Assembly (NCBI RefSeq): GCF_947258925.1
Contig: NZ_CAMYKG010000019.1
Span: 1 to 64,000 of the forward strand
Source of the DNA: an uncultured Eudoraea sp.
Lineage (GTDB): Bacteria > Bacteroidota > Bacteroidia > Flavobacteriales > Flavobacteriaceae
Length of the DNA: 64,000 bases
Direction: 5' to 3'
The position numbers and the translations under genes are program-made. Every line of letters starts with the position of its first letter. Positions within the stretch are counted from its first letter, which is position 1. The notes beneath the pieces are model-generated. The model did no database searches, was not told the origin of the DNA, and was given only the letters and a program-made list of their open reading frames with translations. Shown here piece after piece: positions 4,551 through 25,082 of the stretch.

Positions 4551-4980
4551 TTTTTATAGTTTACTTAATTGGTTTCATTTTAGTTTTTTTAATTAAACGT
4601 ACCCTACTAAAATTCATTTAAAAATACACCTTGTTTTAAAGTGAATAAATGATCTTCATCATATGTATTGTTTAATGAATCTTATTAACGAAACTTTATA
4701 TTAGTTAAAACCCTTGGATATATTTATCAGCAACATGTGCACACTAGATAGCGCAACAAAAGTTGCTTTTATTGGCGGGGTTACCTATCGCCAACCGGGG
4801 GCAATATAACTTGCTCAAAACAGGGTCTCGATTCAAGATGATATGGAAATTATTCAAAAAAGACAGATACTAAAGCCTGTGCTTTCACACAAAAAATAAG
4901 CCAAAACAATTTAAATGGGAAAGGGTAATATTAGAGAAGAAGGAATTTATATATTTAGAAATAATAAACACATGGCCAAT

Positions 4981-6627
4981 ATGAAATATGTTGCTTTAGC
5001 GATTAGTATCTCATTCTTGTTTATGAGCTGTTTACAAGAAAAGGAAGAGATATCCCCACAAACAGAATACACCAGTACTAAATATGAGAGCCTGGTTAGT
5101 CTGTTTACTAAATGGAGGACATTTGAAAACCCTCCACAAGTTAATGGAGTACCAGATTATTCGCGCACTGGTTTTGAGAAAAGACACCCCCAATTTAATA
5201 CCTTAAAAACTGAACTATTAGCTATAGATACTACTTCCTGGCCAGTCCCTGAACAGGTAGACTGGATGATAGTTTGGGCTGAAATGAATGGTTATGATTT
5301 TAATTATAGGGTTCTTAGGCCCTGGGAACGAGATCCGGCCTTTTATAAGTCGGTCTGGACCTATAAAAGTGATGTTCCGGCACACGAAGGCCCCACCCAT
5401 CATCGAACAACGGAATTATGGACCTACAGCTATCCTTTATCCGAAAGTGAACGTACACGCCTTATCAAAGATCTTAAGGTAATCCCCGGTTTAAATGAAC
5501 AGGCAAAAAACAACCTGACAGGTAATGCGAAAGATTTGTGGATCACGGGGATTAGAGATATCGAGGAACAAAGCAGGGTCCTTAATAAGTTTAAAGAAAA
5601 AGAGGAAATAAAAGCAGATAAGGAAATAGTAGCAGTCATAAACCAGGCCATTACTTCTACAGATAATTTCGTTACGTGGTTAAAGGAACAATCAAATTCT
5701 AAAACCGGGCCTTCAGGAATTGGTAAGGAAAATTACACCTGGTACCTTCAAAATGTGCACCTTGTTCCTTTGACCTGGGAAGATGAGGTCATGATTTTAA
5801 AGAGGGAACTGGCAAGGGCCTGGGCCTCCCTAAAACTGGAAGAACATAAGAATAGAGATTTACCGGAATTGGAAGATGCTAACTCACCGGAAGCTTACCA
5901 AAAGCTGGCAGATGCTGCTGCAAATAGTCTGATCAGTTTTTTACGGGAACAGGAGATAGTAACCGTAAAGCCCTATTTTGAACCTGCTTTGCGAGAACAT
6001 CTTGGTGAATATGTTCCCAGGGAGAAACGAAACTTTTTCCTGATAGGGGAGCATTATGACCCCCGACCTTTATACTCGCATTTTTATCATTGGTTTGAAT
6101 TAGCAAGGATGAAGGTCGAACCTCATAAAAGTGAGATACGCCGCGGTCCGTTATTATATAATATTTTTGATTCCAGAAATGAAGGCACTGCTACCGCCGT
6201 TGAGGAAATGTTTATGCAAGCCGGACTATATAGCGATAGTCCAAGGACCAGGGAAATTGTATATATTATGATCGCTCAAAGGGCCGCAAGAGGTTTGGGT
6301 TCTTTGTATGCACACGCTAATGAAATGACGATGGAGGAAGCCGGAGGAATACACTCAGAGTATACCCCCAGGAGGTGGATGAAAACGGAAAAGGAGTTAC
6401 TTATTTTTGAACAGCATCTGTACCTCAGACAACCCGGGTATGGCACCAGTTATATCACAGGAAAATACCTATTGGAAAACGCCATGGCGGCCTATGCCAA
6501 AAGCATGGAGCAGGAGGAAAAACCATTTATACTCAAAGATTTTTTTGATATGCTAAATAGCATTGGGAACATTCCTATCTCTTTAGGACATTGGGAAATG
6601 ACAGGCTCTAATAAAATTTGGAATTAA
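4981..6627 (+). CDS. DUF885-like secreted lipoprotein (putative metallopeptidase-related)
   Basis: Start chosen at MKYVALAISISFLFMSC (lipobox); GKENYTWYLQNVHLVPLTWE and RNEGTATAVEEMFMQAGL segments as in DUF885-type proteins. Confidence 0.7.
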   Translation: MKYVALAISISFLFMSCLQEKEEISPQTEYTSTKYESLVSLFTKWRTFENPPQVNGVPDYSRTGFEKRHPQFNTLKTELLAIDTTSWPVPEQVDWMIVWAEMNGYDFNYRVLRPWERDPAFYKSVWTYKSDVPAHEGPTHHRTTELWTYSYPLSESERTRLIKDLKVIPGLNEQAKNNLTGNAKDLWITGIRDIEEQSRVLNKFKEKEEIKADKEIVAVINQAITSTDNFVTWLKEQSNSKTGPSGIGKENYTWYLQNVHLVPLTWEDEVMILKRELARAWASLKLEEHKNRDLPELEDANSPEAYQKLADAAANSLISFLREQEIVTVKPYFEPALREHLGEYVPREKRNFFLIGEHYDPRPLYSHFYHWFELARMKVEPHKSEIRRGPLLYNIFDSRNEGTATAVEEMFMQAGLYSDSPRTREIVYIMIAQRAARGLGSLYAHANEMTMEEAGGIHSEYTPRRWMKTEKELLIFEQHLYLRQPGYGTSYITGKYLLENAMAAYAKSMEQEEKPFILKDFFDMLNSIGNIPISLGHWEMTGSNKIWN

Positions 6628-6797
6628 TTATTAAACCAAAATTAGTATTAGATAATCATAGGTAGAAAAGGATGGTTTTACTCCCCGGTTTACTATAGTT
6701 GACGCAGGTACTTAACGCTCACGCATAAGAGGATTCCATGTCCCGGCAAGCTCCATGGTTAGGATAAATTAAGACGGGCTTATGTATATATTCAGTA

Positions 6798-8116: not shown

Positions 8117-9883
8117 TTATGGAAGGCTCATAATTTCTGAGAAGTCCAGCAATTGCTGATTCACGTCTTTAAGCCGTAACCTGTATAATTTGGAAAATGC
8201 TTTTTGCGAACGCGTATTATAATTCTTATAAACTGTTAGCTTTAAATAGGTGGCCGTTAATTTTTTATTGCCTTTGTAGGATACATTTACCTGCCAATCT
8301 GCGGGTAAAGGTTCATATATAAAGAACTCTTCTGAAGAGTACCCCCTGATTTTTTCATCTCTGATCCTGTCGGGATTACTTTTAGTAGTATGTTCCCAGG
8401 TAAAATAGTGTTTTTCAGGGTTTACGAATTGTAAATCAAATTCTGCTTCACTATCATTCCATTCAACAAGGATTCTTGTTCCCTCTTGTTTCAATCTATT
8501 CATCGCTGGAAAATCTAAATCAGAGTTTTCTGAAATATCATTTTTGTGCCGTATAAGCAGATTCATAAAATCCTCTTTTACTATGCCACTTATGCCACTG
8601 TTATCCTTTGGAAAAAACCCTTCATTAATAAGGTGCAAATAACGCACAAGTAAATTGGCAGCCCTTTTATAGTTACCGGAAGCAACATAGCTATTGGCAA
8701 GGTCCCGGTAAGATTGTGCGTAACTTGGTCGCAACAAAAATATTTTTTTATAATATTCATTGGCCAAATCGGGTTTATCCGTTACTTCCAGTGCATAAGC
8801 CAAAGCCTTGCATTGTACAGCATTTCTAAAAAGTCCGATATTTTCCTCTAATAGCTCTGTGGCATAGGTGGTGGCTCCCCTTTCTGAGAAAAATAAATAG
8901 CTATCCAGAACAAAGTAAGGATCGTTTTTTAAGGTTTTTGCATATTGCTCATAGAATTGTTTTGACTCTGTAAGATTAGAACTTCCGTATAAAGCTTTAA
9001 TATAATTGGACGAATTTTTTAAAATTCCTTCCTGATCAAGTGCATCACCCTGGTAGATATTATCCCTCAATTTAGCATAATCATATAATGAATTGGTACC
9101 TGGCTCTTTTACGATATTAGAGCCTCTGGTATTGATTATAATAACTCCGCCCCGTGCTATAGGACCATAACGGGTTACCCCTAATAAACCGGGAATAACA
9201 GCAACTCTTTCAATATTTTGTATTATTAAGAACAGCGGTGGTTGTGTCATGACTATTCCATCTACATCAAATATGGCCGGTGCCGGATTGTTAATGGAAG
9301 ATCTTCCTCTCAGAAAAATAGCCCTTTCGCCTAGGTTACCTGTAGTTCCCCTGGCTGTTCCGATACGTAAATTAGGTATCTTTCCGCGCAGGGCAGTTAG
9401 AATATCTACGGCACCGGGGTTTAATCTGCCGCCTTCAACAACATACATCGAATTACCCACGAGGTCCTTGTTAATATAACCGAAGGCTGTATTAATCACA
9501 CCCTTATCGAATGTGTATTGATATCGCAGGTAGTCCTGGTTTCTTTTATTTAATTTTTTGGTGACATTAACTTCATCAAGTTCCTCAATTTTCAATTTCA
9601 TTTCAATGTTTAACCTGCTTGTAACATCTTCCACGATGATCTCTTCATCTTTCAGTCCCATATAACTGAATACTAAAACATCGGACGGTGAAGCTTTAAT
9701 CTGATAATATCCATTTTCATCGGTGGATGTGTCGGTTGAAGTATCCGAAACCCGGACAGCTACATTTTTTAAGGGAGAAGCCCCATCTGTAACCCTTCCA
9801 TAAATCATATTTTCCTTTTCCTGGGCGAAACCTATCTGAATAAAGCTAAACAGAATAAACGCCCATAAATTCTTCGCATTCAT
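8117..9883 (-). CDS. Carboxypeptidase-regulatory-like domain + TonB plug-like domain protein with TPR-like region
   Basis: IYGRVTDGASPLKNVAVRVSDTSTDTSTDENGYYQIKASPSDVLVFSYMG; plug-like VDILTALRGKIPNLRI...GGVIIINTRG; later YYKKIFLLRPSYAQSYRDLANSYVASGNYKRAANLL. Confidence 0.8.
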   Translation of the reverse strand: MNAKNLWAFILFSFIQIGFAQEKENMIYGRVTDGASPLKNVAVRVSDTSTDTSTDENGYYQIKASPSDVLVFSYMGLKDEEIIVEDVTSRLNIEMKLKIEELDEVNVTKKLNKRNQDYLRYQYTFDKGVINTAFGYINKDLVGNSMYVVEGGRLNPGAVDILTALRGKIPNLRIGTARGTTGNLGERAIFLRGRSSINNPAPAIFDVDGIVMTQPPLFLIIQNIERVAVIPGLLGVTRYGPIARGGVIIINTRGSNIVKEPGTNSLYDYAKLRDNIYQGDALDQEGILKNSSNYIKALYGSSNLTESKQFYEQYAKTLKNDPYFVLDSYLFFSERGATTYATELLEENIGLFRNAVQCKALAYALEVTDKPDLANEYYKKIFLLRPSYAQSYRDLANSYVASGNYKRAANLLVRYLHLINEGFFPKDNSGISGIVKEDFMNLLIRHKNDISENSDLDFPAMNRLKQEGTRILVEWNDSEAEFDLQFVNPEKHYFTWEHTTKSNPDRIRDEKIRGYSSEEFFIYEPLPADWQVNVSYKGNKKLTATYLKLTVYKNYNTRSQKAFSKLYRLRLKDVNQQLLDFSEIMSLP

Positions 9884-10066
9884 AGCACAATACGTTATTT
9901 ATATTCGTTTTCCTTAAAGATACCCAATATAACGTAATAGAACAAGTATAAAACTTGAACTTCCAACCTCCAACTTCACACTTCGTACTTCAAATTGCTT
10001 ACTGGAAAGGTTGGTTGCGGTAATAGCATGTAATTCGCATAAGATTCAGAACATTCAATTCACTCA

Positions 10067-11809
10067 TTAATACATTGGATATCCATGATCCTCCGGTAAC
10101 CCAATTTTAATGATCAGATCTTTCCAACGTGCATCGCTATGCATAGGTTTAAAAGATGGATATGTTAGTGCCTCCAGCAAAACAGGATCTTTAACCTCAA
10201 AAGCTATATTTAACCAATGAAAAGATTCGTCATAATTACCCCTAAACGCATAAAGATCTGCAACATTGGCAGGATCTGTATCGCTGTACTTATCCAGGAA
10301 TTCAGCAAACAAGCTATCTGCCGTGGTCTTAGGACCCCTTGCATAAAAGATAAAATTCCGACCATAGAGACTGAAAAACTCATGCTTTTCCTGCTCTATT
10401 TCAGCAAGGGCTTCATCGTTTCTACCCTGGGCCAATCGAATTTTAGCTATCATATAATGTAATATTTCCCAGTTGGGATAATACAATTCAAATGTTTTGA
10501 ACGCCTCTTCTGCCTCGTCCAGGCGATTCATCCTATAATAGGCATGCCCAAGGTTAAAATAATTAGTGTAAACTAAGGGATCTGTCTCTATTGCCTTCTT
10601 TAACAAATCAACCGCCTTCTCCAAATCGCCAAAGGGCATATTCGCAGCTGTGCCCATTATGATACCATCATTAGGCACTAAGGTGAGTGCTTTATTCATA
10701 TTCTTAGAGGATGCTTCAAAATCCCAGTTAAGTTCCTGCAGACTTGCTAAAGTGGCATAGGCATAACCCGAATCGGGATCCAATTCAATAGCTTTATATG
10801 CCGCATCTAGTCCCAAAGAAATCCCTTCTTTTGGTTCTCGAATACTAAAATTGTAGGTGCCGGTATTGTATATTCCGGCCAGTAAACGCCATGAAGGGGC
10901 ATAGGTTGAATCCAGGGCAATAGATTCTTTCACTTTGGATTCGGCCTCAACATAAGCATCTTTCGTATTTAGATTCACCAAATGATTGGCCTGAAGATAT
11001 AAATTATACGCTTCCGGATCTATAGATTGAGATTTTAAGGGATAACCCAATATCGATATCTCCAATTCTTTACTGACCTCAGCGGCAATCTCATCCTGAA
11101 TTTTAAAAATACTATCTAGTTCCCGGTCATAGGTATGTGACCACTCATGACTACCATCTTTGGTATTGATCAATTGTGCCGTAACGCGGATCATATTCCC
11201 TGCTTTGCGTATGCTACCCTCCAAAATATGAGACACTTTAAGTTCATTGCCTATCTCCGTTGCTTTGGTATCCTTGCCCTTATAAGAAAATGAAGAAGTA
11301 CGGCTTATGACTTTGAGTTCCGGTAACTTAGCCAAAAGATTCAATAACTCCTCGCTAATACCATCAGAAAAATATTCATGGTCTTTATTAGGGCTCATAT
11401 CCGCAAAGGCCATGACCGCGATAGACTTATTTCCGTACTCAACTACCTCCGCAGAGTCCCTGGTAAACCGATCAACTAAAAGAACAATAATGGCTAAAGT
11501 AAGTGTCGTTATGATTAACTTGTTAAGGCGAGTGCCTGTTTTTGTGCTAATAGACTTACCCGGTTCAACATCAATAGTTTTCTTAATACCCTCCGGCGTA
11601 AATTCGTATACCCAGGCCAGAATTAGCCATATTGGAAAACCAATTGCTAATGCTACCAAAGACCACTTTAGCAAATAATTTGGGGCCCCGAACGCAGGTA
11701 ATACGGTTGACAGCACCTGCGTAATCAACCAGGCTACTACAAGATAAGCTATTGCAGACTTAATGACATTACGCCGCTTAAGTTCATTAAAATAGTCATT
11801 GAATTTCAT
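10067..11809 (-). CDS. TolB-like / tetratricopeptide repeat membrane protein
   Basis: FNELKRRNVIKSAIAYLVVAWLITQ, KSIAVMAFADMSPNKDHEYFSDGISEELLNLLAK, VSHILEGSIRKAGNMIRVTAQLI, TPR region. Confidence 0.9.
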   Translation of the reverse strand: MKFNDYFNELKRRNVIKSAIAYLVVAWLITQVLSTVLPAFGAPNYLLKWSLVALAIGFPIWLILAWVYEFTPEGIKKTIDVEPGKSISTKTGTRLNKLIITTLTLAIIVLLVDRFTRDSAEVVEYGNKSIAVMAFADMSPNKDHEYFSDGISEELLNLLAKLPELKVISRTSSFSYKGKDTKATEIGNELKVSHILEGSIRKAGNMIRVTAQLINTKDGSHEWSHTYDRELDSIFKIQDEIAAEVSKELEISILGYPLKSQSIDPEAYNLYLQANHLVNLNTKDAYVEAESKVKESIALDSTYAPSWRLLAGIYNTGTYNFSIREPKEGISLGLDAAYKAIELDPDSGYAYATLASLQELNWDFEASSKNMNKALTLVPNDGIIMGTAANMPFGDLEKAVDLLKKAIETDPLVYTNYFNLGHAYYRMNRLDEAEEAFKTFELYYPNWEILHYMIAKIRLAQGRNDEALAEIEQEKHEFFSLYGRNFIFYARGPKTTADSLFAEFLDKYSDTDPANVADLYAFRGNYDESFHWLNIAFEVKDPVLLEALTYPSFKPMHSDARWKDLIIKIGLPEDHGYPMY

Positions 11810-12066
11810 TTAATCTCGGTTAAAATCTAAAAATACAAAAAATAAGATGAGGCCTATTTTTTGGGTCAAAACCAGCGATTAAATGCAATTAAAACCCTGC
11901 TCTAGTTGATAAAAAGGGTATGACAGGGTGCTCTGCATTGGTGAATTCAGTAATCAATACAGGGCTAAGGGAGCTTACGCATACTTGAACTAATTAGCAT
12001 GAATTCTATTTTGGCAGTAGTCTTTTAGAGGATGGTCGTAGGCTTATACCTGATTCTTTGATATAA

Positions 12067-12098
12067 AAAAGCCTCCGACGTTCAAGGTGGAGGCTTTT
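12067..12098. terminator. Intrinsic terminator (bidirectional-looking)
   Basis: aaaaGCCTCCgacgttcaaggtGGAGGCttttat. Confidence 0.7.
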
Positions 12099-12158
12099 AT
12101 TTCCAAGTAAATAAAATAGCTACTCTATCGTGCTAAAAAGATCATGATAAGAATTGCT

Positions 12159-12614
12159 CTAAGATTTCAATCTCTTAAAAATGAATCTGGTAATAAAAAT
12201 GCCTGTTCCATCACCTTTCCCCGCGTCGCTTTCCACGCCACTGGTAACGTATGCCAATTCCCAGCCTTCTTCTATCATAGTATTCACTTTTGATGAAAGC
12301 AGGGCATCATTTGAAGCAACATTTTGAAAATTAATACCTGTTGCACTGTAGAAATTGAGAATTTTTGTTTCATCAAAATTGTCCACCTTAGCATCTCCTC
12401 GTTTGGATTTATTCTGCTTTTTATTTTCTTCTGTCCGACTTGAGGTATATTCCTTGTAATCCTTGTCTTCCTGGGCTGAAATTATCCTGGATCTTCCGAC
12501 ACCCATAGGAACTACAGATTCAATACTAGTTACAATTCTGTATTCATAGGCCTGGGCCTTTATTTCCAATATTGAAACAAATAGGAGGGCTGCAAATAAA
12601 ACTTTTTTCATCAT
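12159..12614 (-). CDS. Secreted hypothetical protein
   Basis: Signal peptide MMKKVLFAALLFVSILEIKAQ; INFQNVASNDALLSSKVNTMIEEGWELAYVTSGV. Confidence 0.7.
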   Translation of the reverse strand: MMKKVLFAALLFVSILEIKAQAYEYRIVTSIESVVPMGVGRSRIISAQEDKDYKEYTSSRTEENKKQNKSKRGDAKVDNFDETKILNFYSATGINFQNVASNDALLSSKVNTMIEEGWELAYVTSGVESDAGKGDGTGIFITRFIFKRLKS

Positions 12615-12864
12615 TTTGTTGGTTTATATTATTTAAACATTGTTAAGAAAGCAATAACTGCCAATTCGGGCATTTATTGCTATGATCAATGATAAACACC
12701 CGTTATATGGCTTGAAGCGGGTTCAATTCACCTGGTAATCGGATTTTGTTTGGCCAACAAACCACAGTGGGTTCGTTTATCATAGAGGACTAGGTGATTT
12801 TCATGGCGATTAATTCGGTACAGGATTATATAGTCTTATAAGCTAGTATTCCCCTTTTTATGAA

Positions 12865-14130
12865 TCAACTCTCTTCCTGCTTTCCATACAAACGGAAATA
12901 ATACCAGGCGGCAATGCCACCAATGAAGGCAAACAGGGCCAACATCCAAAACACATGTTGATGCCCAACGGCACCCGGGGAATTCTCTAAGAGAACACCC
13001 ATGGCAGGGCCGGCAAAGATATCCGGGGTATAACCTATGAGCGAAATAAGGCCAACAGCAGTCCCTGTTAATACTAATGGGATTTGACCCCGCTCCATAA
13101 CGGCAAAGTACAATGCACGGGCAGCGTACACTCCGGCGGCCACAACCAATATGGATATAAAAAACAATAGGGTTTCCGAATCTGTAATTAATCCAGTTGC
13201 GAATAATAAAGCTCCGAAGAAAGTGACTACAAAACTAATGACGAGCCAAATGGTGGTATTCGTTCTATCTGCCAATATCCCAATAAGGACACCAATTACA
13301 GGGCGGATAAATAGCAAAAAGGTACCAACCTGGGCTGATCCTACCTGATCATAAAGCATAACGTCCTGTGCGTAGAGTGAGAACACATCCGTAATTTTAT
13401 AGCCAACATAGCCACAAAGAATAATGATCATAAGAAGCCATACCGATGGCAAACGCAAAACTTCTTTTATTTGTGATAGCGTTATTTTATCAAGAACGAT
13501 CTCTTTTTCTACTTTGCGATCCATTTTCATAAAGGACCAGACCATTAAGCCTACAAACACTACTATGCCTGAGGTTACCAGAATTACATATTTAAAAGCC
13601 ATACGACTTTCGGCAACTGTGGCCTCTGAAACTTCATCAGTAATAAATAATGAAAAAATAGATACACCCAAAGCACCGAATAGTGCGCCTACCAGCCCAC
13701 GTCCCCCATCCAAAAAGCCAAATGCTTTGCCCTGAGAAGAAGACCCACCCCATATTCTGGTGGCCTTGATCATAGGAGCCCAAAATAAAAAGATGGTAGT
13801 AAAACCCCAATAGCCATATAGTATTTTTAACACGGTATAACCGGGAAAAGTAGCATAAACCAAACCTCCTAAGGCCGTCATCCATAGGGCCGATGCGATT
13901 AATTTTCTGGGGGGGTATTTATCGGCCAAAGGACCTCCAAAAAGATAGGAGAGCAGGGCAATTATGCCATAGACCGAGAAACAAATACCTAACTGTACAT
14001 TGTCTAAATTAAATGCTTCCAGTACTGTTGGCCGGAAGACTCTTGAAAGAACAAATGGCAGAATAAATACAGATTCCCCGGCCAAAATAAGAAGTAAGAG
14101 GAAGTACCAGGGAGCTTTTGTTTGATTCAT
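12865..14130 (-). CDS. MFS transporter
   Basis: Twelve hydrophobic segments; GGPLADKYPPRKLIASALWMTALGG MFS loop motif; GILADRTNTTIWL. Confidence 0.9.
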   Translation of the reverse strand: MNQTKAPWYFLLLLILAGESVFILPFVLSRVFRPTVLEAFNLDNVQLGICFSVYGIIALLSYLFGGPLADKYPPRKLIASALWMTALGGLVYATFPGYTVLKILYGYWGFTTIFLFWAPMIKATRIWGGSSSQGKAFGFLDGGRGLVGALFGALGVSIFSLFITDEVSEATVAESRMAFKYVILVTSGIVVFVGLMVWSFMKMDRKVEKEIVLDKITLSQIKEVLRLPSVWLLMIIILCGYVGYKITDVFSLYAQDVMLYDQVGSAQVGTFLLFIRPVIGVLIGILADRTNTTIWLVISFVVTFFGALLFATGLITDSETLLFFISILVVAAGVYAARALYFAVMERGQIPLVLTGTAVGLISLIGYTPDIFAGPAMGVLLENSPGAVGHQHVFWMLALFAFIGGIAAWYYFRLYGKQEES

Positions 14131-14422
14131 GGATTTTGATGAATTTTACGTCAGAATTTTGACCACCTAAAGTTAAAATTGGTGTTTGGCAGTCCAAGGT
14201 ACTGAATTATCAACAGAAGAAGGCATTAGGAATATATACGAGAAGTAAACGACCTATTGTTGCGCAGTGATGATAAATATTTGTGTGGTTAGGCTAAAAA
14301 CCCTTTAATTTATTCGATATAAAAAGTACTGAAATACATAATAATCACGTTTTAAATCGGTTAATAACTTATAAAACCTTATTTTCATCGTGTTACCACT
14401 AAATCGAAATAGTATTTTTCCT

Positions 14423-15727
14423 ATGAAGCGAAGCAAAATTCTGAGAGTCAGCGCTATTTTTACGCTTACCCTTTTTGTCCTCGCTATAGGTGTCTATGCT
14501 ACTGCAACAAATTCTACCTCAGAAGAAGCATTTTCAACGGATGGGTCAACTAAATCCATAGTAGATCAACAACTGGCGCAGCTTTATAAATGGCAACAAC
14601 AGGAATTAAAGCGTGCCATACAAGCATATTTTGATAAAGCCATTGCATCAGGGGCAATAGTGGGTGCAGGGGTAAGTATTGTTAAAGGAGATTCGATTGT
14701 AATTTCAGATGGATTCGGTAAAAGAAATATTAATGTCGATGCAGGTGTTGACGGCCAGACCATTTTCAGACTCGGATCCCTATCCAAAGGATTTGCAGGG
14801 ATATTGGCTGCCGATTTAAAAAATGAGGGCAAGATAGATTGGGAAGATAAGGTCAGCGATTATATTCCGGAATTTCAGTTGGGAGATCAAAGCAATACAG
14901 ATAAAATTACGCTTGCCAATATTTTATCCCATACTTCAGGGGCGCCTTATCATAGCTACACGAATTTAGTTGAGGCCGGTTTGCCATTAACAGATATTGC
15001 TAAACGTTTTAAAGAGGTAGATCCAATTAGTAATCCCGGTTCTATATACAGTTATCAGAATGCGCTATTTGCTCTCTCGGGGGAGATGATGTACAAAGCC
15101 ACCGGGCAGGAAATTACCACAGCATTGGATGACAGGTTCTTTAAGCCACTGGAAATGTGTTCCACTACGATGGATTACGAAACCTTATTACATGCTGAAA
15201 ATGTTGCAGTACCACATTCAAAAAGGCGAAACGGTTGGAGATCTAAAAAACTCAGAAATAGTTATTTTAATGCAATAGCTGCGGGAGGTATTAATGCCAG
15301 CGCTGATGATATGGCTAAATGGATGCGATTTTTGTTAGGGCATAACCCGGAGATAATGAGCAAGCAGGCCTTAGAGGAGGCTTTTAACCCGGCTATAGAA
15401 ATTAAAGGCCACTATAAATATTACCAACGTTGGCCCGGACACCAAACATCGTATTATGGGTTTGGGTGGAGGATCCATAAATTTATTGAGGATCAGACCA
15501 GGCAGGAAAAAACCATTTGGCACCACGGTGGAAGTGTAAACAATTTCAGAAATGAAATTGCCGTATATCCCGAGGCAGATCTGGGGATTTGTGTACTACT
15601 GAATAATAATTCCAGGATTGCGAAAACGGTAGTACCCGACTTATACAAGATTATTAAAAAGGTATATGACCAGTCTGCTACCAAAATTGCCTTTAACAGC
15701 CTTCCAAACAATATGCTGCACCTCTAA
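14423..15727 (+). CDS. Serine hydrolase (beta-lactamase / class C PBP-like)
   Basis: SxxK in FRLGSLSKGFAG, YxN in YSYQNALFALSGEMM, HHGGSVNNFRNEIAVYP; start at MKRSKILRV (signal peptide), ORF opens at 14390. Confidence 0.9.
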   Translation: MKRSKILRVSAIFTLTLFVLAIGVYATATNSTSEEAFSTDGSTKSIVDQQLAQLYKWQQQELKRAIQAYFDKAIASGAIVGAGVSIVKGDSIVISDGFGKRNINVDAGVDGQTIFRLGSLSKGFAGILAADLKNEGKIDWEDKVSDYIPEFQLGDQSNTDKITLANILSHTSGAPYHSYTNLVEAGLPLTDIAKRFKEVDPISNPGSIYSYQNALFALSGEMMYKATGQEITTALDDRFFKPLEMCSTTMDYETLLHAENVAVPHSKRRNGWRSKKLRNSYFNAIAAGGINASADDMAKWMRFLLGHNPEIMSKQALEEAFNPAIEIKGHYKYYQRWPGHQTSYYGFGWRIHKFIEDQTRQEKTIWHHGGSVNNFRNEIAVYPEADLGICVLLNNNSRIAKTVVPDLYKIIKKVYDQSATKIAFNSLPNNMLHL

Positions 15728-15845
15728 GTAGTGCTCTAACTTCATAGTTGTTTTATAAAACCCAAACCCATTTTTTTCACGAAAATAGTGCTTCACTAAT
15801 ATGCAGCATTGTTTATTTGGATCAGGCAAGGGTTTATAAATAAGA

Positions 15846-15873
15846 AACCCAACCTGTTTAAGGTTGGGCTATC
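15846..15873 (-). terminator. Putative terminator for the 15899-16165 gene
   Basis: CCCAACCT-gttta-AGGTTGGG stem; moderately T-rich on minus strand. Confidence 0.5.
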
Positions 15874-15898
15874 TGCTAATAGTAGGTAATTAATTTAC

Positions 15899-16165
15899 TT
15901 ATGGAATGAAATCTCCTAAACTACATATCAATTGAATATATTCAGCTGGTGATACTCCTTCAAGTTCCTCTGCCGAAATCGTTTCAGATTGGCCGGCGGC
16001 AGTAAGCGTAAAAGTGTCGTCTCCATTATCACAAATCTCTACCGCCTGGCCTTGCAGATCACAGGATTCACAATTCGTATCATCAGCATCGTCGTCGGAG
16101 CAGCTGCTAAAGCCAAAAGCCATTATTGCTAACATGGACATTCCTAAAATAGATTTCTTAAACAT
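15899..16165 (-). CDS. Small acidic, Cys-containing lipoprotein
   Basis: MFKKSILGMSMLAIMAFGFSSCSDDDADDTNCESCDLQGQAVEIC. Confidence 0.75.
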   Translation of the reverse strand: MFKKSILGMSMLAIMAFGFSSCSDDDADDTNCESCDLQGQAVEICDNGDDTFTLTAAGQSETISAEELEGVSPAEYIQLICSLGDFIP

Positions 16166-16312
16166 AATATAGGTTTTAATAAGGGGTTAAAAAACTAGAA
16201 CGATTCTTTTTACGATATATTTCACCCTGCTACCTATCTAGTGGATGTTTCCTATGAAATAAAAGGGGAGGTATTCAACCCTGGCGAAACACTCGAACGA
16301 TTTAGGTTTTTA

Positions 16313-16456
16313 CTATAGGGCGGTCTTCAAGCCGGTAATTAACTGATCAATGGCCTCCATACTTGTGTAATGCAAAAAAGACATTCTCAACACACCCGGT
16401 TCTAATGGTATGCCTATATCCATGAGAGGGCGCACGACATAGAAATCGCCCATACC
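16313..16456 (-). pseudogene. C-terminal relic of a class-V aminotransferase (paralog of 18737-19963)
   Basis: GMGDFYVVRPLMDIGIPLEPGVLRMSFLHYTSMEAIDQLITGLKTAL vs intact GMGDFYAVRPLMDMDIPRQPGVLRISFMHYTSMDEINQLIEGLKKAL. Confidence 0.9.
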
Positions 16457-16790
16457 TGGCCAAATGGATTCGATTTTTATTAGGTCATTACCCGGACATA
16501 AGTAGTAAGCAAGCCTTAGAAGAGGCATTTATCCTGGTTATAGAAATTAAAGGCCACTACAAATATTACCTGCGCTGGACCGGAGACCAATCATTGTATT
16601 ATTTCTTTGGCTGGAGGATCCATAAATTTGTTAACAATCACAAAGATTTGATAAAACAATTTGGCACCACAGTGAAAGTTTAAACAGATTCAGGAAAGCA
16701 ATTGCAGTCCATTCTGAAGCAGTTTTATTTATTTGCGTGCTTATTCAATAATTCGATCCTGGCAAAAATGATAGTCCCGGATTTATACTA
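16457..16790 (+). pseudogene. C-terminal relic of a serine hydrolase (paralog of 14423-15727)
   Basis: Collinear nucleotide similarity to about 15312-15647 (tggccaaatggattcgatttttattaggtcattacccgg vs tggctaaatggatgcgatttttgttagggcataacccgg; ggaggatccataaattt...), with frameshifts and stops. Confidence 0.9.
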
Positions 16791-17022
16791 GTATCCCAAC
16801 TAATAGAAATAAACTATTAAAACTATGAGTCATATCTTTTAATTTTTGTCCAAAATTTTGTTTTAGGTTACTCTAAGACAAATATTCAGCACAATGGGTT
16901 TTCTAAAACAGGATTAATGGGTTTTGTTTAATACGTTTAATGCTTTTAATATTCCTATTAGACATAATCTGTATATTCTTCAATTGGAATTGAGAATAAT
17001 ATATTGCTATCCATTGAATTCC

Positions 17023-18654
17023 TTATCCGGTTGGTCGGTCCAATTTGGGGTATAGACTATATAATCGTTGAGCCCTGTATACCGAATAGCGTATTTCAGG
17101 ATCAGAAATATGTAGTTCCCAGATTTTTTCTGTAGCGGGTTCTTTAGTCACCTCCAATATCCTTGCCCACTGGTGACCTCCGAAGTCTGTCATCAGATTG
17201 CCATCCTCGTCTTTAAAGCGCCCACCATCTGTAATAAGGACATTGCCGGTAGTAGGCATATAATCCGCATCACTGATAAAGGGTGATATAAAACGTTCCT
17301 TTTCCGGTCCGTAAGACCATATTTCTTCAACGGTCCCTGCAGCTTCATCCACCCGTAATTCCAGTGCCCGACTAAAACGCTCTTCATCCGGCATTGGCGG
17401 ATTTGGAGGTATAAAGCGTGCTCCGCCATTGTCATACATAAGAATTGTACCCTGTGGGGTCATTTCTACTCCATGCTGGTGGCACGGCCAGGTTAAATTG
17501 CCTTTCGGCTTCAGGAGTTTGTCGGACCAGGGTTTCTCCCAACCGGTAGGATCCCCAAGGATCCATAATAAGTTGCCGGTTTTCATATCAATTTTGTAAA
17601 TCGCACATTGGAAATTGGATGAGACAAGAACGGCATCTTCCTCTTCTATGTAATAAATGGCATTACTGTGGGTAATATCATAGGGAAGCGGATCGTAACG
17701 ATCTTTATAAATATCGTAGTAATGGCCTCCTCTTAAAGATCCATCACCCAGGCGCCGGGGATCAAGAATATCTACGAGAGACCATTCACGAATCGTACTG
17801 CCATTGGGTGCAAACTCTATGATGACATCTCCTGCAACATCCGCAGTTCGTTTTTTATTTGAAGGTGGATACTCCACCGGAAAATCTTTTAGTGAACGTA
17901 CTTCCAGACCCAGCCCGAGAAAATTTCCGGATGCCAGTTCCAGGACATCGTGATGAAACATATCTGTATCCACTGCTATGCTTGCTTCCGTTACAGGTTT
18001 TGTAACTGCACCGGCGGAATGCCATTCCTGAATGGTATTACCAAGCATATCTATTTCAAAAACACGTCCGTCTTCCACGCCTCCAAGCATTAGGTTGCCG
18101 TTGTGTTTTCTCCTGACTTCATCTACCCAGTAATCTGTTTTTAAATACCAAACCACCTCACCCGTATCATCCACCGCTATGGCATAGCCCCATTCAGAAT
18201 CATCATCAAATGGTTCTTTCCAGCGAAATACAGTAAACATAGTTATACCCGGCTCCATTTCTCCGGTTTTTTGCTGCACCAGTTCAAGGGCAGGAAAATC
18301 ATCCGGGAGAGGAGGGGTTGTAATTGAAAGAGAATCCAGGACAAGTTCCCTGCCCTTTTCATCCCGAAGTATTGCTGTGACCTGATGGGTTTTATCCGGA
18401 TTCAGCCCTAACACCAGCAATTCATGATTTGTTTTAAAGGTAGAATCGGGTTGAATGGTATCTGCTCTCGTTCCATCATCAATAATTAATGTGGTACTTA
18501 CCGGACGGTCGGCAGTAAAGGTGAGTATCCCTGCTAAGGGTGCATTTTTATTAGGATTAGGCAGCAGTTGAACATTTGTTGCAACCGGCGGGCCGGCACA
18601 ACTTATAAGAGTTAACATAACAAAAGATGCCATAAGAACAAATCTGGAAGTCAT
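17023..18654 (-). CDS. Arylsulfotransferase (ASST)-like lipoprotein
   Basis: Lipobox LTLISCAG; GYAIAVDDTGEVVWYLKTDYW, FEIDMLGNTIQEWHS, FHHDVLELASGNFLGLG, DITHSNAIYYIEEEDAVLVSS, WPCHQHGVEMTPQGTILMYDNG. Confidence 0.85.
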   Translation of the reverse strand: MTSRFVLMASFVMLTLISCAGPPVATNVQLLPNPNKNAPLAGILTFTADRPVSTTLIIDDGTRADTIQPDSTFKTNHELLVLGLNPDKTHQVTAILRDEKGRELVLDSLSITTPPLPDDFPALELVQQKTGEMEPGITMFTVFRWKEPFDDDSEWGYAIAVDDTGEVVWYLKTDYWVDEVRRKHNGNLMLGGVEDGRVFEIDMLGNTIQEWHSAGAVTKPVTEASIAVDTDMFHHDVLELASGNFLGLGLEVRSLKDFPVEYPPSNKKRTADVAGDVIIEFAPNGSTIREWSLVDILDPRRLGDGSLRGGHYYDIYKDRYDPLPYDITHSNAIYYIEEEDAVLVSSNFQCAIYKIDMKTGNLLWILGDPTGWEKPWSDKLLKPKGNLTWPCHQHGVEMTPQGTILMYDNGGARFIPPNPPMPDEERFSRALELRVDEAAGTVEEIWSYGPEKERFISPFISDADYMPTTGNVLITDGGRFKDEDGNLMTDFGGHQWARILEVTKEPATEKIWELHISDPEIRYSVYRAQRLYSLYPKLDRPTG

Positions 18655-18736
18655 ATAAGAAAAAGTTTTAGAAATGGTTAAAGTGTATGTTGTAATGGAT
18701 AAGGATATTTATTTCAATTTGAATAGTTTAGTGATT

Positions 18737-19963
18737 CTACAACGCCTTTTTCAAGCCCTCTATCAGCTGATTAATTTCGTCCATACTGGTGTAATGCATA
18801 AAGGAAATTCGCAACACCCCGGGTTGTCTGGGTATATCCATATCCATTAATGGGCGAACGGCATAAAAATCCCCCATACCCAACATCAATTGCTGCGCTG
18901 TTAAATCCTCATATACCTTTTTAAGGCTTTTATTTAAAGGGATAATAGAAACAATGGGAGCCCTGTCTTCGGCACCGTCAGAACCAATTATTCTTACATC
19001 ATCCCGGGACCTTAAAAAATCAAGTAAGCGCTCTAAAAGGGCTTTTTCATGTTCCCGGAATAATTTATTCAATGCACTATTTCTTTGAGCCGGTGTTGCT
19101 TCCTCATCAAAATGATGTTCATAAACTGCGTCAAAATAGTCTATGATTCCGCAAGCCGATCCAATTTGAGCATGGTCCGGTCCTGCAGGGGTTAACATAC
19201 TCCTGGTGATACCCTCCTTGAAAAAATGCGATTGGTTTTCCATCTTTCCCATTAAATCCCGGTGTACATACATCAACCCTAAATGAGGACCAAATGTTTT
19301 GTACAATGAAAAAAGATAAATATCTGCTCCCAGTTCCCTTAAATCAGGAAAACCATGTGGTGCATAACCCACGCCATCAACAACGGAGAGTGCTCCTTTT
19401 TCATGGGCTCTTCTGCTGATTTCTTTTACCGGATTAATATCGCCGATTACATTGGAACAATGCGGATATGCCACCATCCTCGTTCGGCTGGAAAGCAAAG
19501 TATCCAGGTCATCCAGGCTGAGCAATCCGGTATCTGAAGCTACGTGCCACTCAACTACTTTAATTCCTCTATCTCCCAGTCTTCTCCATGCTCCGGCATT
19601 AGCTTCATGATCCTGACAGGAAACGATGATTTCGTCACCATCCTGCCACATGGGTCGCATGGCATTTGCCAGTACATATACATTTTGGGTGGTGGAAGGA
19701 CCGAAATGAATTTCTGAAGCTTCAACATTAAGGTAATCTGCTATTCTCCTATAAGATTCGTCCATCATTTCTCCTGCTCGCATAGAAGCAGGGTAAGGAT
19801 AGTACGGTTGCACCTTGTTCTTCATGTAAAAGTCAGTTAACCTTTGAATAAACTGAGCACAGGGATATGATCCTCCAGCATTTTCAAAAAAAGCCCATCC
19901 TTGCAGAGATGGTTCTTCAAAAGCGGGAAATTGAGCACGTACAAATTGCAAATCAAGTTTCAT
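18737..19963 (-). CDS. Class-V aminotransferase-fold PLP enzyme (cysteine desulfurase-like)
   Basis: FGPSTTQNVYVLANAM, VSCQDHEANAGAWRRL, VVDGVGYAPHGFPDLRELGADIYLFSLYKTFGPHLGLMYV (PLP lysine region). Confidence 0.9.
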   Translation of the reverse strand: MKLDLQFVRAQFPAFEEPSLQGWAFFENAGGSYPCAQFIQRLTDFYMKNKVQPYYPYPASMRAGEMMDESYRRIADYLNVEASEIHFGPSTTQNVYVLANAMRPMWQDGDEIIVSCQDHEANAGAWRRLGDRGIKVVEWHVASDTGLLSLDDLDTLLSSRTRMVAYPHCSNVIGDINPVKEISRRAHEKGALSVVDGVGYAPHGFPDLRELGADIYLFSLYKTFGPHLGLMYVHRDLMGKMENQSHFFKEGITRSMLTPAGPDHAQIGSACGIIDYFDAVYEHHFDEEATPAQRNSALNKLFREHEKALLERLLDFLRSRDDVRIIGSDGAEDRAPIVSIIPLNKSLKKVYEDLTAQQLMLGMGDFYAVRPLMDMDIPRQPGVLRISFMHYTSMDEINQLIEGLKKAL

Positions 19964-20298
19964 AATGAAAAATGTTATTCAATAAATATTTATAACTACT
20001 ATCGTGGGGATCCTGCAACTGCTGTGCAATCTTGACAACATGGTATCTCTGATAATTAGAAATTTATGGCAAGATTTTTTACTGCAGGTTGCGTGACCAA
20101 GGTAATCAATTATCTTTTAAAAAATTTGTTTATAAGGATGTCGTACAAAAAGTAAATTACCTAAAATCCGATAATTTTTTAGGGGAATACCTTACTGCAT
20201 AAATTTAAATGCAACTAAGCTTATTCAATAATTATATGTAGCTTTAAAAAATACAAGAACCGCTCTCAATTAATACTAATTCTTTTTTAATACAACGA

Positions 20299-20799
20299 AT
20301 GGTTTTAAACATAAATAATGAGATACATGACGTATCCGTTGATCCGTATACCCCATTGTTATGGGTCATCCGTGAACAACTTGGATTGACAGGAACAAAA
20401 TTTGGATGTGGAATAGGACAGTGTGGGGCCTGTACCATACATCTTGATGGTACTCCCATTCGATCTTGTTTAACCCCGGTACAATCAGCTGAGGGTAAAG
20501 CAATAACCACCATAGAAGGTATTGCACCCGGCACTACCGAATTGCATGCTGTACAAACGGCCTGGATAGAAGAACAAATTCCCCAATGTGGCTATTGCCA
20601 ATCGGGTCAAATCATGGCAGCCCATGCTTTATTAGCTACTAACGCGGCTCCAACAGATGAAGATATCGACCAGGCAATGAGCGGCAATATCTGCAGATGT
20701 GGGACCTACCCAAGAGTCCGAAAAGGAATTAAGCGTGCGGCCGAATTACTGAAAGCATCATCAAACAAAAAAGATACGGATCATGGGGAAATGGAGTAG
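20299..20799 (+). CDS. (2Fe-2S)-binding small subunit, isoquinoline 1-oxidoreductase alpha-type
   Basis: [44 protein letters not shown]. Confidence 0.92.
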
Positions 20800-23005
20800 A
20801 AGAGCATTTATTACAACTGGGGTGCTCACCGGCGGAGCACTGGTCCTTGGCGTTGCTATCAGACCAGGAAACCGGGCAAAAAAGGTAAAAGATTTAATTG
20901 CAGGTGAAGGCGAAACGGTGCTGAACATCTGGCTGAAAATTGATAAGGATAATATTATTACTGTAGTTGTACCACATGCAGAAATGGGACAAGGGGTGCA
21001 TACAACACTGCCTATGATGCTGGCAGATGAAATGGATGCCGATTGGACCAAAGTACGTATGCTCGAAGCTCCGGGTAATAAGGAGTATGCCAATTATGCC
21101 CTGGCAAAAGGTTTTATCCTTGGGCCAAAAGATATTCCGTCCATTCTTATGGGTACTGTTGATGGCTTCTTTTTGACAGCTACCAAACAAATAAACCTTC
21201 AAATAACAGGCGGTAGCGCATCTGTGCGTTTTACGGGAATGTTCGCCATGAGAGTGGCAGGTGCAGCAGCCAGGGCAGTCTTACTGCAAGCAGCGTCAGA
21301 ACAGTGGGAAATTCCGGCAGAAGAATTGGTAGTGAAGAACAGTAAAATCTCCCATCCGGAGACTAATAGAACAGCTAAATTTTCAGATCTGGCGGTTAAA
21401 GCAGCCAACTTAAAACAGCCGGCCAAGCCATTACTTAAGACATCGAAGGAATTCACTATCATGGGAACCTCACCACAGCGTTTTGACATCCCATCAAAAG
21501 TCAATGGAACAGCAAATTTTGGTATTGACATGGTTCTGCCCAATATGAAATATGCAGCCATTAAAGCATCGCCCGTCTTCGGGGCAAAAGTTAAACCCCT
21601 TGCCAATGAGGCTATTAAAGATATGGCTGGAGTTCATAAAGTGGTCAATTTAGAAGGTGCTGTTGCCGTTATTGCAGATGGGTATTGGTTGGCCAAGAAT
21701 GCAATTGACAAATTACCTATAGCATTTGAGAAAAGCGCCAATGATGCTGTTGCGCAATCAGATATTTATGATAGGTATTTGCAGGATATGGATAGCGCTA
21801 TTTCAGAGGGTAAGGAAGAAAAAGATATCAAAAAAGGGAATATCACGGCAGTTTTTGAAGAAGCCACCAATGTGGTAGAAGCGGAATATCGTGTACCATA
21901 TCTGGCACATGCCGCTATGGAACCAATGAATTGTACAGCTTTGGTAAATGCGGATGGCTGCGAGATTTGGGTAGGGAGCCAGAATCCTTTGGGATTTGCC
22001 AACAGCGTTGCAGAAGCCCTTGGTATTGACCGAAAAGAAGTTATTGTAAACAATCAATTTCTGGGCGGCGGATTTGGACGACGATCCGTTCCGGATGTAG
22101 CGGTACAAGCTGCCTTGATTGCCAAAGAAGTGGATTATCCGGTTAAGCTTATCTGGTCTCGTGAAGAAGATATAAGACAGGATCATTACCGAGAGGCTAA
22201 TGTGAGTCGTTTTAAAGCAGCTTTGGATCCTAAAGGCATGATAACCGCCTGGAACAACCAATTCGTATTTAAAAACGAACCGGAAGAGGCCCCGCACATT
22301 CCTTATGCCGTAGACAATCAATACATACATTATACCAATAGTGAAACACATATCCCCTGGGGATTTTGGCGTAGCGTAGACTCTTCTATGCATGCCTTTT
22401 TTACAGAATCCTTTATGGACGAATTGGCGTTTAAAGCCAATAAAGATCCCTATCAATTTAGACGTGAGCATCTTACAAATGCACCCCGATATTTGAAAGT
22501 ATTGGACAAGGCTGCGGAGAAATCCAATTGGGAGGAACCACTTCCGGCTAATTGGGGACGCGGGATATCTCTTCACCAGTCTTTTGGTACTATTGTGGCC
22601 CAGGTGACAGAGATAGAATTAATAGAAGACAAGCTAAAGGTACATAGGGTAGTATGTGCGGCGGATCCTGGATTTGCATTTCACCCCGACGGTTTTAAAG
22701 CGCAAATGGAAAGTGGAATTATTTTTGGACTAACAGCCGCCCTCTATGGCGAAATAACCATCGAAAACGGCGCGGTGAAACAGAGTAATTTCCATGATTA
22801 CCAGATGCTGCGCATGGATGAGTCACCTAAAATAGAAACCTATATCATAACCAGCGATAACTTTCCGGGTGGGGCCGGTGAACCGAGTACCCCCGGAATT
22901 GCCCCTGCAGTGGTAAATGCGATATTTAATGCATCAGGAATGCGGATAAGGAGCCTTCCTATTAAAAATCACAATTTGGTGACAAAGCCAAAACCCTTAG
23001 CCTGA
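20783..23005 (+). CDS. Xanthine dehydrogenase family molybdopterin-binding subunit (IorB-like), Tat signal
   Basis: Twin-arginine [65 protein letters not shown]; overlaps the upstream CDS by 17 nt. Confidence 0.92.
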
Positions 23006-23130
23006 CTGGTTTTTGGGATATATTTGGGATAGAATTTCACTATAACCTTACTCCTCAATGGGATAGTTTTAACTCTATGATCTTATACAGGCCTATTGCA
23101 GACAGAACGATAATAGCTAACTATAAAATA

Positions 23131-23164
23131 AAAAGGCAGTTCCTGTTTTAAGAACTGCCTTTTA
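23131..23164. terminator. Intrinsic terminator between convergent genes
   Basis: aaaaGGCAGTTCctgttttaaGAACTGCCtttt. Confidence 0.85.
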
Positions 23165-23192
23165 AACTTTAATTGGATAAATAGGGTTGGGC

Positions 23193-23726
23193 TTATTTAT
23201 ATATTTTCTCTTCGATGAATTTCTGGCGTTTCAGTAGTATTTTTTGTTCCCGTGCAAGTTTTATTTGCTTCTTTTTGATCTCGGTAAGCTCGGCAAGCAA
23301 TACTTTTTCTTTGGTTTGGTCTTTATCTATATTATAATCGGGAATATTTTCATCCTGAATACCGGCTTGTGTATAGACATCTAATTCTCCTATCAGATCC
23401 TGAATATCACCAAAAGCTTTTTTAGTGTAATACCTTCCCATATCAAAATCTTTAGGGTCTGCAGCTTTTTCCAAATTCTCAATCCCGTTGAGAATAGGGT
23501 CTATTGCTTTATCACATCCACAACTTTCAATTAATTTTTTTGCTTTTTCCAAAGCTTCAAGGGCCTTATAAGCATAATACTTCTGATGGTCAAAATTTTT
23601 CGCACTCATTGACTTCTTCGTATGGTTTAAGGCATAGGAAGCTGATGAATAAGTGTTGTCACACTCTGCTGATACAAAAAATGAAGTTAAAACAAAGGCA
23701 AGGGATAATAGGTATTTAATGTTCAT
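23193..23726 (-). CDS. Secreted hypothetical protein, helical
   Basis: Start at MNIKYLLSLAFVLTSFFVSAEC; C-terminal charged coiled segment. Confidence 0.7.
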   Translation of the reverse strand: MNIKYLLSLAFVLTSFFVSAECDNTYSSASYALNHTKKSMSAKNFDHQKYYAYKALEALEKAKKLIESCGCDKAIDPILNGIENLEKAADPKDFDMGRYYTKKAFGDIQDLIGELDVYTQAGIQDENIPDYNIDKDQTKEKVLLAELTEIKKKQIKLAREQKILLKRQKFIEEKIYK

Positions 23727-23948
23727 GGTACTAATTTTAAGATTTGGGATGGTAAAGGAGCTAAACTTTGTCCAAACAAAAAAAAAATTGTGGTCAACTG
23801 CCACATTTTGTAGTCAAAATACTATTAAATCTATAAAAGTGATGAATTCTTGGTTTAAATATATTTGTACAATTTGCATAAAAATCAGATGATCTACCTA
23901 TTATGGGGATGAAATTTTCTATACCACTTACATTCAAGGATGTGCCCA

Positions 23949-25082
23949 TTACAAAATATAGACCACAAGAAAACCTAAATAAGTACCAAGTGCATTACCT
24001 AAAGTGCCCACAAGGATGGCAGGCAAGATGAGTTCATTTCTATCGAAGGTCTCCGCAAGGGCTATAGCCGTAGTACCGCCACCAATATTAGCCTGGCTTA
24101 CGATAGATAACATTTCCCAGTCACGGTATAAAAAACTGCCAATTAAAATTAAGATGAGCCCATGCAACAATACAGAAGTAGAGGCAAACAGCAGCAAGGT
24201 AAGCCCTACTTCCTTTAGCTCAATAACAGCGCTAATTTCACAGTAGGCCCCAATTACAGCCAGGAATATGTATACCAGGTATAACCCCAAAGGGTGACTT
24301 CCTTTTAAACGGTTTACAAAGGGAATTTGTGCCAGGAAGATCCCAATTGTTGAAAGTGTTAATATGGAAGGGACCTTCGGAAATAGTTCAGTTATCATTT
24401 CAGAGGCATAATATGCGGTAATGCCCAGAAAGAGCAACCAGATTAGTGAATGAAAATTAAGCTGTTCCTTATCCTGTGCTTTTATAGTTGCGGCTGTTTT
24501 CTCTACTCTTTTATCTTTCCAGAATTTTCTAAGGATTGCCGGGATAGACAAAGTGGCTATAATCCACAAGGTTGTAATTACATTGTCTACTGCTATCGTT
24601 CCGGCGTAAAGTATGCCACGTTCCTGAAAATCATACTCGAGCGCCACGGCATTAAAGTTGACACTACCTCCTGTATAGGTTCCTGTAAGCATACCCGCTA
24701 TTATTTTACCATCTTCACCCAGTATATCCTGCGGAGAGATGATATACCATGCCAAAAGAACTCCAATTGTAGTCGCCAGGGACCCAATTAAAAACAAAAT
24801 GATCATAGGGGCTCCGGCTTTTCTTATCGAACTAAGATTAACTCCCAGCAATAAATAGAAAATAGAAATAGGAGCTATATAGGTGAAAATACCGTCATAT
24901 AAAGGGATTGAATTAGATGCGGAAGGTATTAACCCCAGATTAGCAATAACGGCCGTAAAAAGTATTACCAACAAAGCGGCCCCAAAATTTTTACCAATCG
25001 CCGTTTTTGATGCATACACCGCGGCAATAACCATCAAACATAATACTCCTAAGACATAGATAGGGTTTTCAGTAAAGGTCAT
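23949..25082 (-). CDS. DUF819 family membrane protein
   Basis: LLGVNLSSIRKAGAPMIILFLIGSLATTIG, GMLTGTYTGGSVNFNAVA, SQANIGGGTTAIALAETF. Confidence 0.9.
   Translation of the reverse strand: MTFTENPIYVLGVLCLMVIAAVYASKTAIGKNFGAALLVILFTAVIANLGLIPSASNSIPLYDGIFTYIAPISIFYLLLGVNLSSIRKAGAPMIILFLIGSLATTIGVLLAWYIISPQDILGEDGKIIAGMLTGTYTGGSVNFNAVALEYDFQERGILYAGTIAVDNVITTLWIIATLSIPAILRKFWKDKRVEKTAATIKAQDKEQLNFHSLIWLLFLGITAYYASEMITELFPKVPSILTLSTIGIFLAQIPFVNRLKGSHPLGLYLVYIFLAVIGAYCEISAVIELKEVGLTLLLFASTSVLLHGLILILIGSFLYRDWEMLSIVSQANIGGGTTAIALAETFDRNELILPAILVGTLGNALGTYLGFLVVYIL

Follow-up and report, generated by a model that had tools for sequence, protein, structure and literature searches.

In-situ xenologous gene displacement occurs by homologous recombination between related species. 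A route in which only one of the two ends is homologous, homology-facilitated illegitimate recombination (HFIR), has been described in Streptococcus pneumoniae, Acinetobacter baylyi, Pseudomonas stutzeri and E. coli (PMC3240628 and references therein), and its illegitimate joints usually lie at 3–10 bp of microhomology, which is not obligatory (PMC3240628). For Vibrio cholerae, a displacement of T6SS effector modules that leaves orphan immunity genes has been proposed (PMC5361080).

The window analysed here is a stretch of 64,000 nucleotides from an uncultured Eudoraea species (genome G000, contig C19), which was compared with other genomes of the genus, labelled G001–G009 and including G004, G006, G007 and G008 (Eudoraea sp.). 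Identities, gene orders and trees suggest with good confidence that an imported segment of ~2 kb has been joined onto the remains of a native serine hydrolase (SH) gene, the joint being flanked by the tail of a foreign aminotransferase (AT) gene and that of the native SH gene; this confidence applies to the import and to what the two tails are, and is separate from the choice of one step over two.

As in HFIR, the incoming block would be homologous to the recipient at one end and non-homologous at the other, and its insertion would be coupled to the loss of resident sequence. The left switch lies in or beside a conserved block upstream of SH, while the other end shares a single T at position 16457 instead of the customary 3–10 bp. 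HFIR entails insertion and deletion in a single RecA-dependent event; here the single step is something we infer, and the event in the window may have been a two-step one, as the apparently different ages of the two tails suggest. The V. cholerae modules offer a second parallel, with an imported module whose anchor is a region of homology upstream and with what is left of the resident gene pushed downstream; here, however, the displaced gene is a hydrolase, its remnant is non-functional and there is no effector/immunity logic. With in-situ xenologous displacement the locus shares the position of the imported SH, which is that of the resident SH next to the same MFS gene, but its right end is non-homologous, hence an extra lipoprotein gene and the AT tail would have come in and the resident SH tail would have stayed. 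The structure is an ordinary but well-preserved scar of interspecies import, of which the type of event is already known and the footprint is unusually readable. It lets a cross-species gene replacement in marine Flavobacteriaceae be read from a natural sequence, the remnant of the displaced gene included, and warns that a seemingly "paralogous" relic next to an intact gene may be the tail of a foreign allele, not a failed duplicate.

Gene order and the joint at position 16457

From left to right, the locus comprises an MFS transporter gene on the minus strand (12865–14130; Pfam MFS_1), which forms the resident left flank; an intact SH gene on the plus strand (14390–15727), assigned to the beta-lactamase-like family PF00144; a small lipoprotein-like gene on the minus strand (15899–16165), 90–91% identical in amino acids to its counterparts in G002 and G004; an intergenic spacer (16166–16312); the C-terminal tail of an AT gene on the minus strand (16313–16457); the 3' third of an SH gene on the plus strand (16457–16791); an arylsulfotransferase (AST) gene on the minus strand (17023–18654; PF05935); an intact class-V, cysteine-desulfurase-like AT gene on the minus strand (18737–19963; PF00266), whose match to TIGR01976 scores below the cut-off of that model; and genes for xanthine-dehydrogenase-like Fe-S and Mo subunits on the plus strand (20299–23005), the resident right flank. 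The spacer is non-coding, as its alignment with G004 and G002 contains small gaps between the relatives. Part of it, 16229–16312, was considered as a peptide tail since it is conserved and has a plausible translation, but gaps of 1 and 2 nt in G004 assign the segment to the intergenic sequence; the fold of the spacer showed nothing unusual. An Rfam search of 14100–20400 gave zero matches, a tRNA search of 9000–24000 found none, and no transposase was recognised among the open reading frames near the joint. For the ~210 bp that separate the SH relic from AST (16792–17004), no genome searched showed any clear similarity.

The sequence-only reading had described two gene tails meeting head to head, and its self-alignment check does yield two collinear families at the predicted coordinates. 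In a self-comparison, minus-strand positions 16313–16456 match 18737–18880 at the C-terminal end of the intact AT (144 nt, 74%), and plus-strand positions 16457–16640 match 15312–15495 of the intact SH (83%), a collinearity that continues from 16650–16741 to 15506–15597 at 74%. Gapped blastn extends the SH match to 16457–16791 against 15312–15649 (76%, E 5e-67) and gives 16326–16456 against 18750–18880 for AT (76%, E 5e-23); both gapped self-matches are far beyond chance. Alignment with intact relatives also bears out that both genes lack their 5' parts at one and the same point, and sets the joint at 16457, where a single T fits both genes: the AT homology ends ...GCCCATACCT, the SH homology begins TGGCCAAATGG..., and microhomology is limited to this one common base. 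The joint, which is absent from all other nine genus genomes examined, cuts the incoming AT and the resident SH at approximately codons 361 and 308, respectively. The description of both tails as decayed holds for the SH tail, which carries a 1-nt deletion, a 2-nt deletion and two in-frame stops, but not for the AT tail, which is hardly decayed and retains an open frame of 71 codons.

Origin of the block and of the two tails

Two arrangements of these genes occur in Eudoraea. Arrangement A, MFS-SH-lipoprotein-AT, is found in G002, G003 and G009, in the latter two with extra genes, and G004, whose contig starts inside SH, has SH-lipoprotein-AT; in G002 and G004 the lipoprotein gene likewise sits between SH and AT. 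Arrangement B, MFS-SH-AST-AT-xdh, is found in G001, while G006 has MFS, SH, AST and AT with extra genes between them. MFS adjoins SH in G002, G003, G009, G001 and G006 alike. The flanks in the window show arrangement B (SH-AST-AT-xdh), and the AST gene is 81% identical in nucleotides to that of G001 and 79% to that of G006, with no nucleotide match in the A-type loci.

Between these flanks, the block at ~14320–16456, comprising the intact SH, the lipoprotein gene and the AT tail, is ~88–93% identical to G002/G004. Relative to G002, identity is 91.8% over 14320–15747 and 88.6% over 15837–16457, as against 75.8% for MFS, 74.9% for the intact AT and 75.4% for xdh in the flanks (76% for XdhL). Identity to G001 is 79.5% for MFS, 79% for SH and mostly 79–82% along the right flank (XdhL 86%, intact AT 77%); the intact AT is 80% identical to that of G006 and ~74–75% identical to the A-type AT genes. 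The intact SH shares 94% of its amino acids with G002 and G004 and groups with these two (support 98/99), so that it is probably an imported A-type copy, while MFS and XdhL fall outside the A-type clade with support of 100, MFS outside the clade of G002, G003 and G009. The gyrB gene of G000 is about equally far (82–85%) from those of G001, G002, G003, G004, G006, G007 and G008; 92% identity to G002/G004 is therefore far above background, and the combined switch in identity and tree indicates that the block is a segment imported from a sister species related to G002/G004. Its features are those of an interspecies recombination tract, namely high donor identity inside, sharp edges (~14220–14350 and 16457) and trees that conflict with those of the flanking genes and with gyrB. 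At the left edge, located by intergenic alignment and the identity profile, the sequence is resident-like and common to G001 and G006 up to ~14219 and donor-like from ~14320; the switch zone (14220–14350) contains the conserved block upstream of SH, which could have served as the anchor for homologous recombination. Elsewhere in the window, 1.7 kb at 4934–6659 are 86–90% identical to the relatives tested, in surroundings of 75–80%.

The AT tail is 93.1% identical in nucleotides to G004, 89.7% to G002, 86% to G009 and 85% to G003, versus ~74–76% to the intact AT, which lies at a distance of 2.3 kb. A tree of 21 sequences places the tail with G004 (97/82) within the clade of G002, G003, G004 and G009 (100/100), and forcing it beside its intact neighbour costs 45 log units and is rejected (p-AU 3.8e-7). 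Changes at otherwise invariant positions number 2 of 66. By identity and phylogeny, the tail is to be assigned to the A-type AT genes and not to the adjacent intact AT, of which the sequence-only reading had taken it to be a decayed paralog.

The SH tail has a different history. It is 76% identical to A-type SH and 71–73% to B-type SH, and lies on a long branch (0.43) outside the A-type SH clade, nearer to A-type than to B-type SH (support 97/99). Grouping with the intact SH of the window is borderline (p-AU 0.051), and grouping with the B-type SH of G001 and G006 is not rejected (p-AU 0.126). Its position beside AST matches that of SH in G001, it is oriented as the B-type SH next to AST, and the distance is nearly equal (~0.2–0.3 kb). 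The divergence of the tail from the A-type consensus is 0.38 at third codon positions, compared with 0.33–0.37 for the intact SH genes of G001, G006 and G008, and 25 of the 182 first and second positions that are invariant in eight intact genes are changed (~0.14 per site). Normal divergence at third positions together with changes at constrained sites points to a resident gene that diverged and then lost its function. Its position, orientation and divergence suggest that the 3' third was left as a frameshifted pseudogene when the resident SH lost its first two thirds, although it counts against a resident origin that descent from the imported SH is no more than borderline-rejected in the AU test. 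At constrained sites the AT tail is less decayed than the SH tail (Fisher p 0.019) and seems to have been decaying for the shorter time, on small numbers.

A further SH copy on another contig of the same assembly, C47, was discarded as a source of the relic. This contig (L056, 15708 bp) is 99.7% identical to contig C6 of G001 over 7.8 kb, unlike the window, which outside the block is ~80% identical to G001, and it probably represents contamination of the bin or a very recent transfer. The bin of G002 may be mixed as well, as hinted by two long rpoB matches on its contigs C209 and C215 (L075, L083), one of which starts from model position 26 as in G001.

One-step join, later deletion and other explanations

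The most likely course would be homologous recombination on one side and an illegitimate join at the second end. Into a B-like locus in the ancestor of G000, an A-locus segment from a relative of G002/G004 would have entered, consisting of SH with its upstream region, the lipoprotein gene and AT, or at least the end of it. The left crossover lies in the conserved region upstream of SH, where it can be placed to within ~130 bp, and the right end is a non-homologous join at 16457 into the resident SH; the imported SH would have taken the place of the resident one, and the resident AT would have been kept. Some observations fit this course less well. An illegitimate join usually shows 3–10 bp of microhomology, more than the one base shared here, and the stronger decay of the SH tail argues against a simultaneous loss of function, although the resident SH was perhaps already dead when the one-step join occurred. 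The SH relic is moreover nearer to A-type SH although the resident gene order is B-like, an affinity that is allowed but not predicted because gyrB leaves the position of the species unresolved. Nearly as likely is the import of a whole A cluster followed by deletion across both starts, a serious possibility that falls somewhat short of an even chance when taken for itself. A complete A-type cluster (SH, lipoprotein and whole AT) would have been placed upstream of the resident SH-AST-AT, the redundant SH would have decayed, and a later deletion would have removed both 5' parts. The imported AT and the resident SH would briefly have been divergent neighbours, in a pair created by the import, and it is in this form alone that the deletion across both 5' ends put forward by the sequence-only reading survives. 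Random deletion is compatible with a one-base joint, and the apparently older decay of the SH tail is as this course would have it; at third positions the imported SH has diverged from G002/G004 by 0.15–0.17, a value close to that decay of ~0.14 per constrained site, which may therefore have begun at about the time of import. Against it stand the need for two events, an intermediate state that was not found among the ten genus genomes, and the basis of the decay comparison, to which the AT tail contributes 66 sites.

Explanations within the locus itself fare much worse. A tandem duplication of 15312–18880, with breakpoints inside both SH and AT and the middle genes afterwards reduced to a single copy, fits the geometry exactly and yields the order and the joint without any deletion across them, yet it was dismissed as highly improbable: duplication predicts that each relic is sister to the adjacent intact copy, which fails for the AT tail and is borderline for the SH tail, and it leaves the block of 88–92% identity to G002 unexplained. 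The placement of the AT tail among the A-type genes tells equally against an inverted duplication, one of the two origins, with an ancestral divergent AT/SH pair, that had been proposed from the orientation of the tails. Either of these, followed by deletion, is hardly credible now that the tails are seen to differ in origin and apparently in age. A divergent pair was seen in no relative when synteny was searched for adjacent ones, and wherever an examined stretch carries close homologs of AT and SH together, the two are convergent. An assembly artefact, with a piece of some co-occurring species mis-joined here as the A-type block, is very unlikely, even though the bin may be impure, as contig C47 indicates. 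Resident sequence encloses the block on both sides, and the block is 88–93%, not ~100%, identical to the known A-type genomes, from which it differs by 7–12%; a one-base joint cannot arise from a shared k-mer and a k-mer assembler would presumably need spanning reads to make it. That a decayed SH beside AT has been seen in no other genome of the genus also speaks against a mis-joined piece.

In G004, positions 5075–5583 of L031 hold an N-terminal relic of a second AT, which is closest to the AT of G001 (87%) and lies ~2.7 kb upstream of the intact A-type AT; this could be a reverse scar at the same locus. Together with the A-type AT tail and the SH tail in the window, it allows the tentative suggestion, doubtful as yet, that the locus is a site of recurrent exchange, where repeated mutual displacement of the A and B versions leaves tails.
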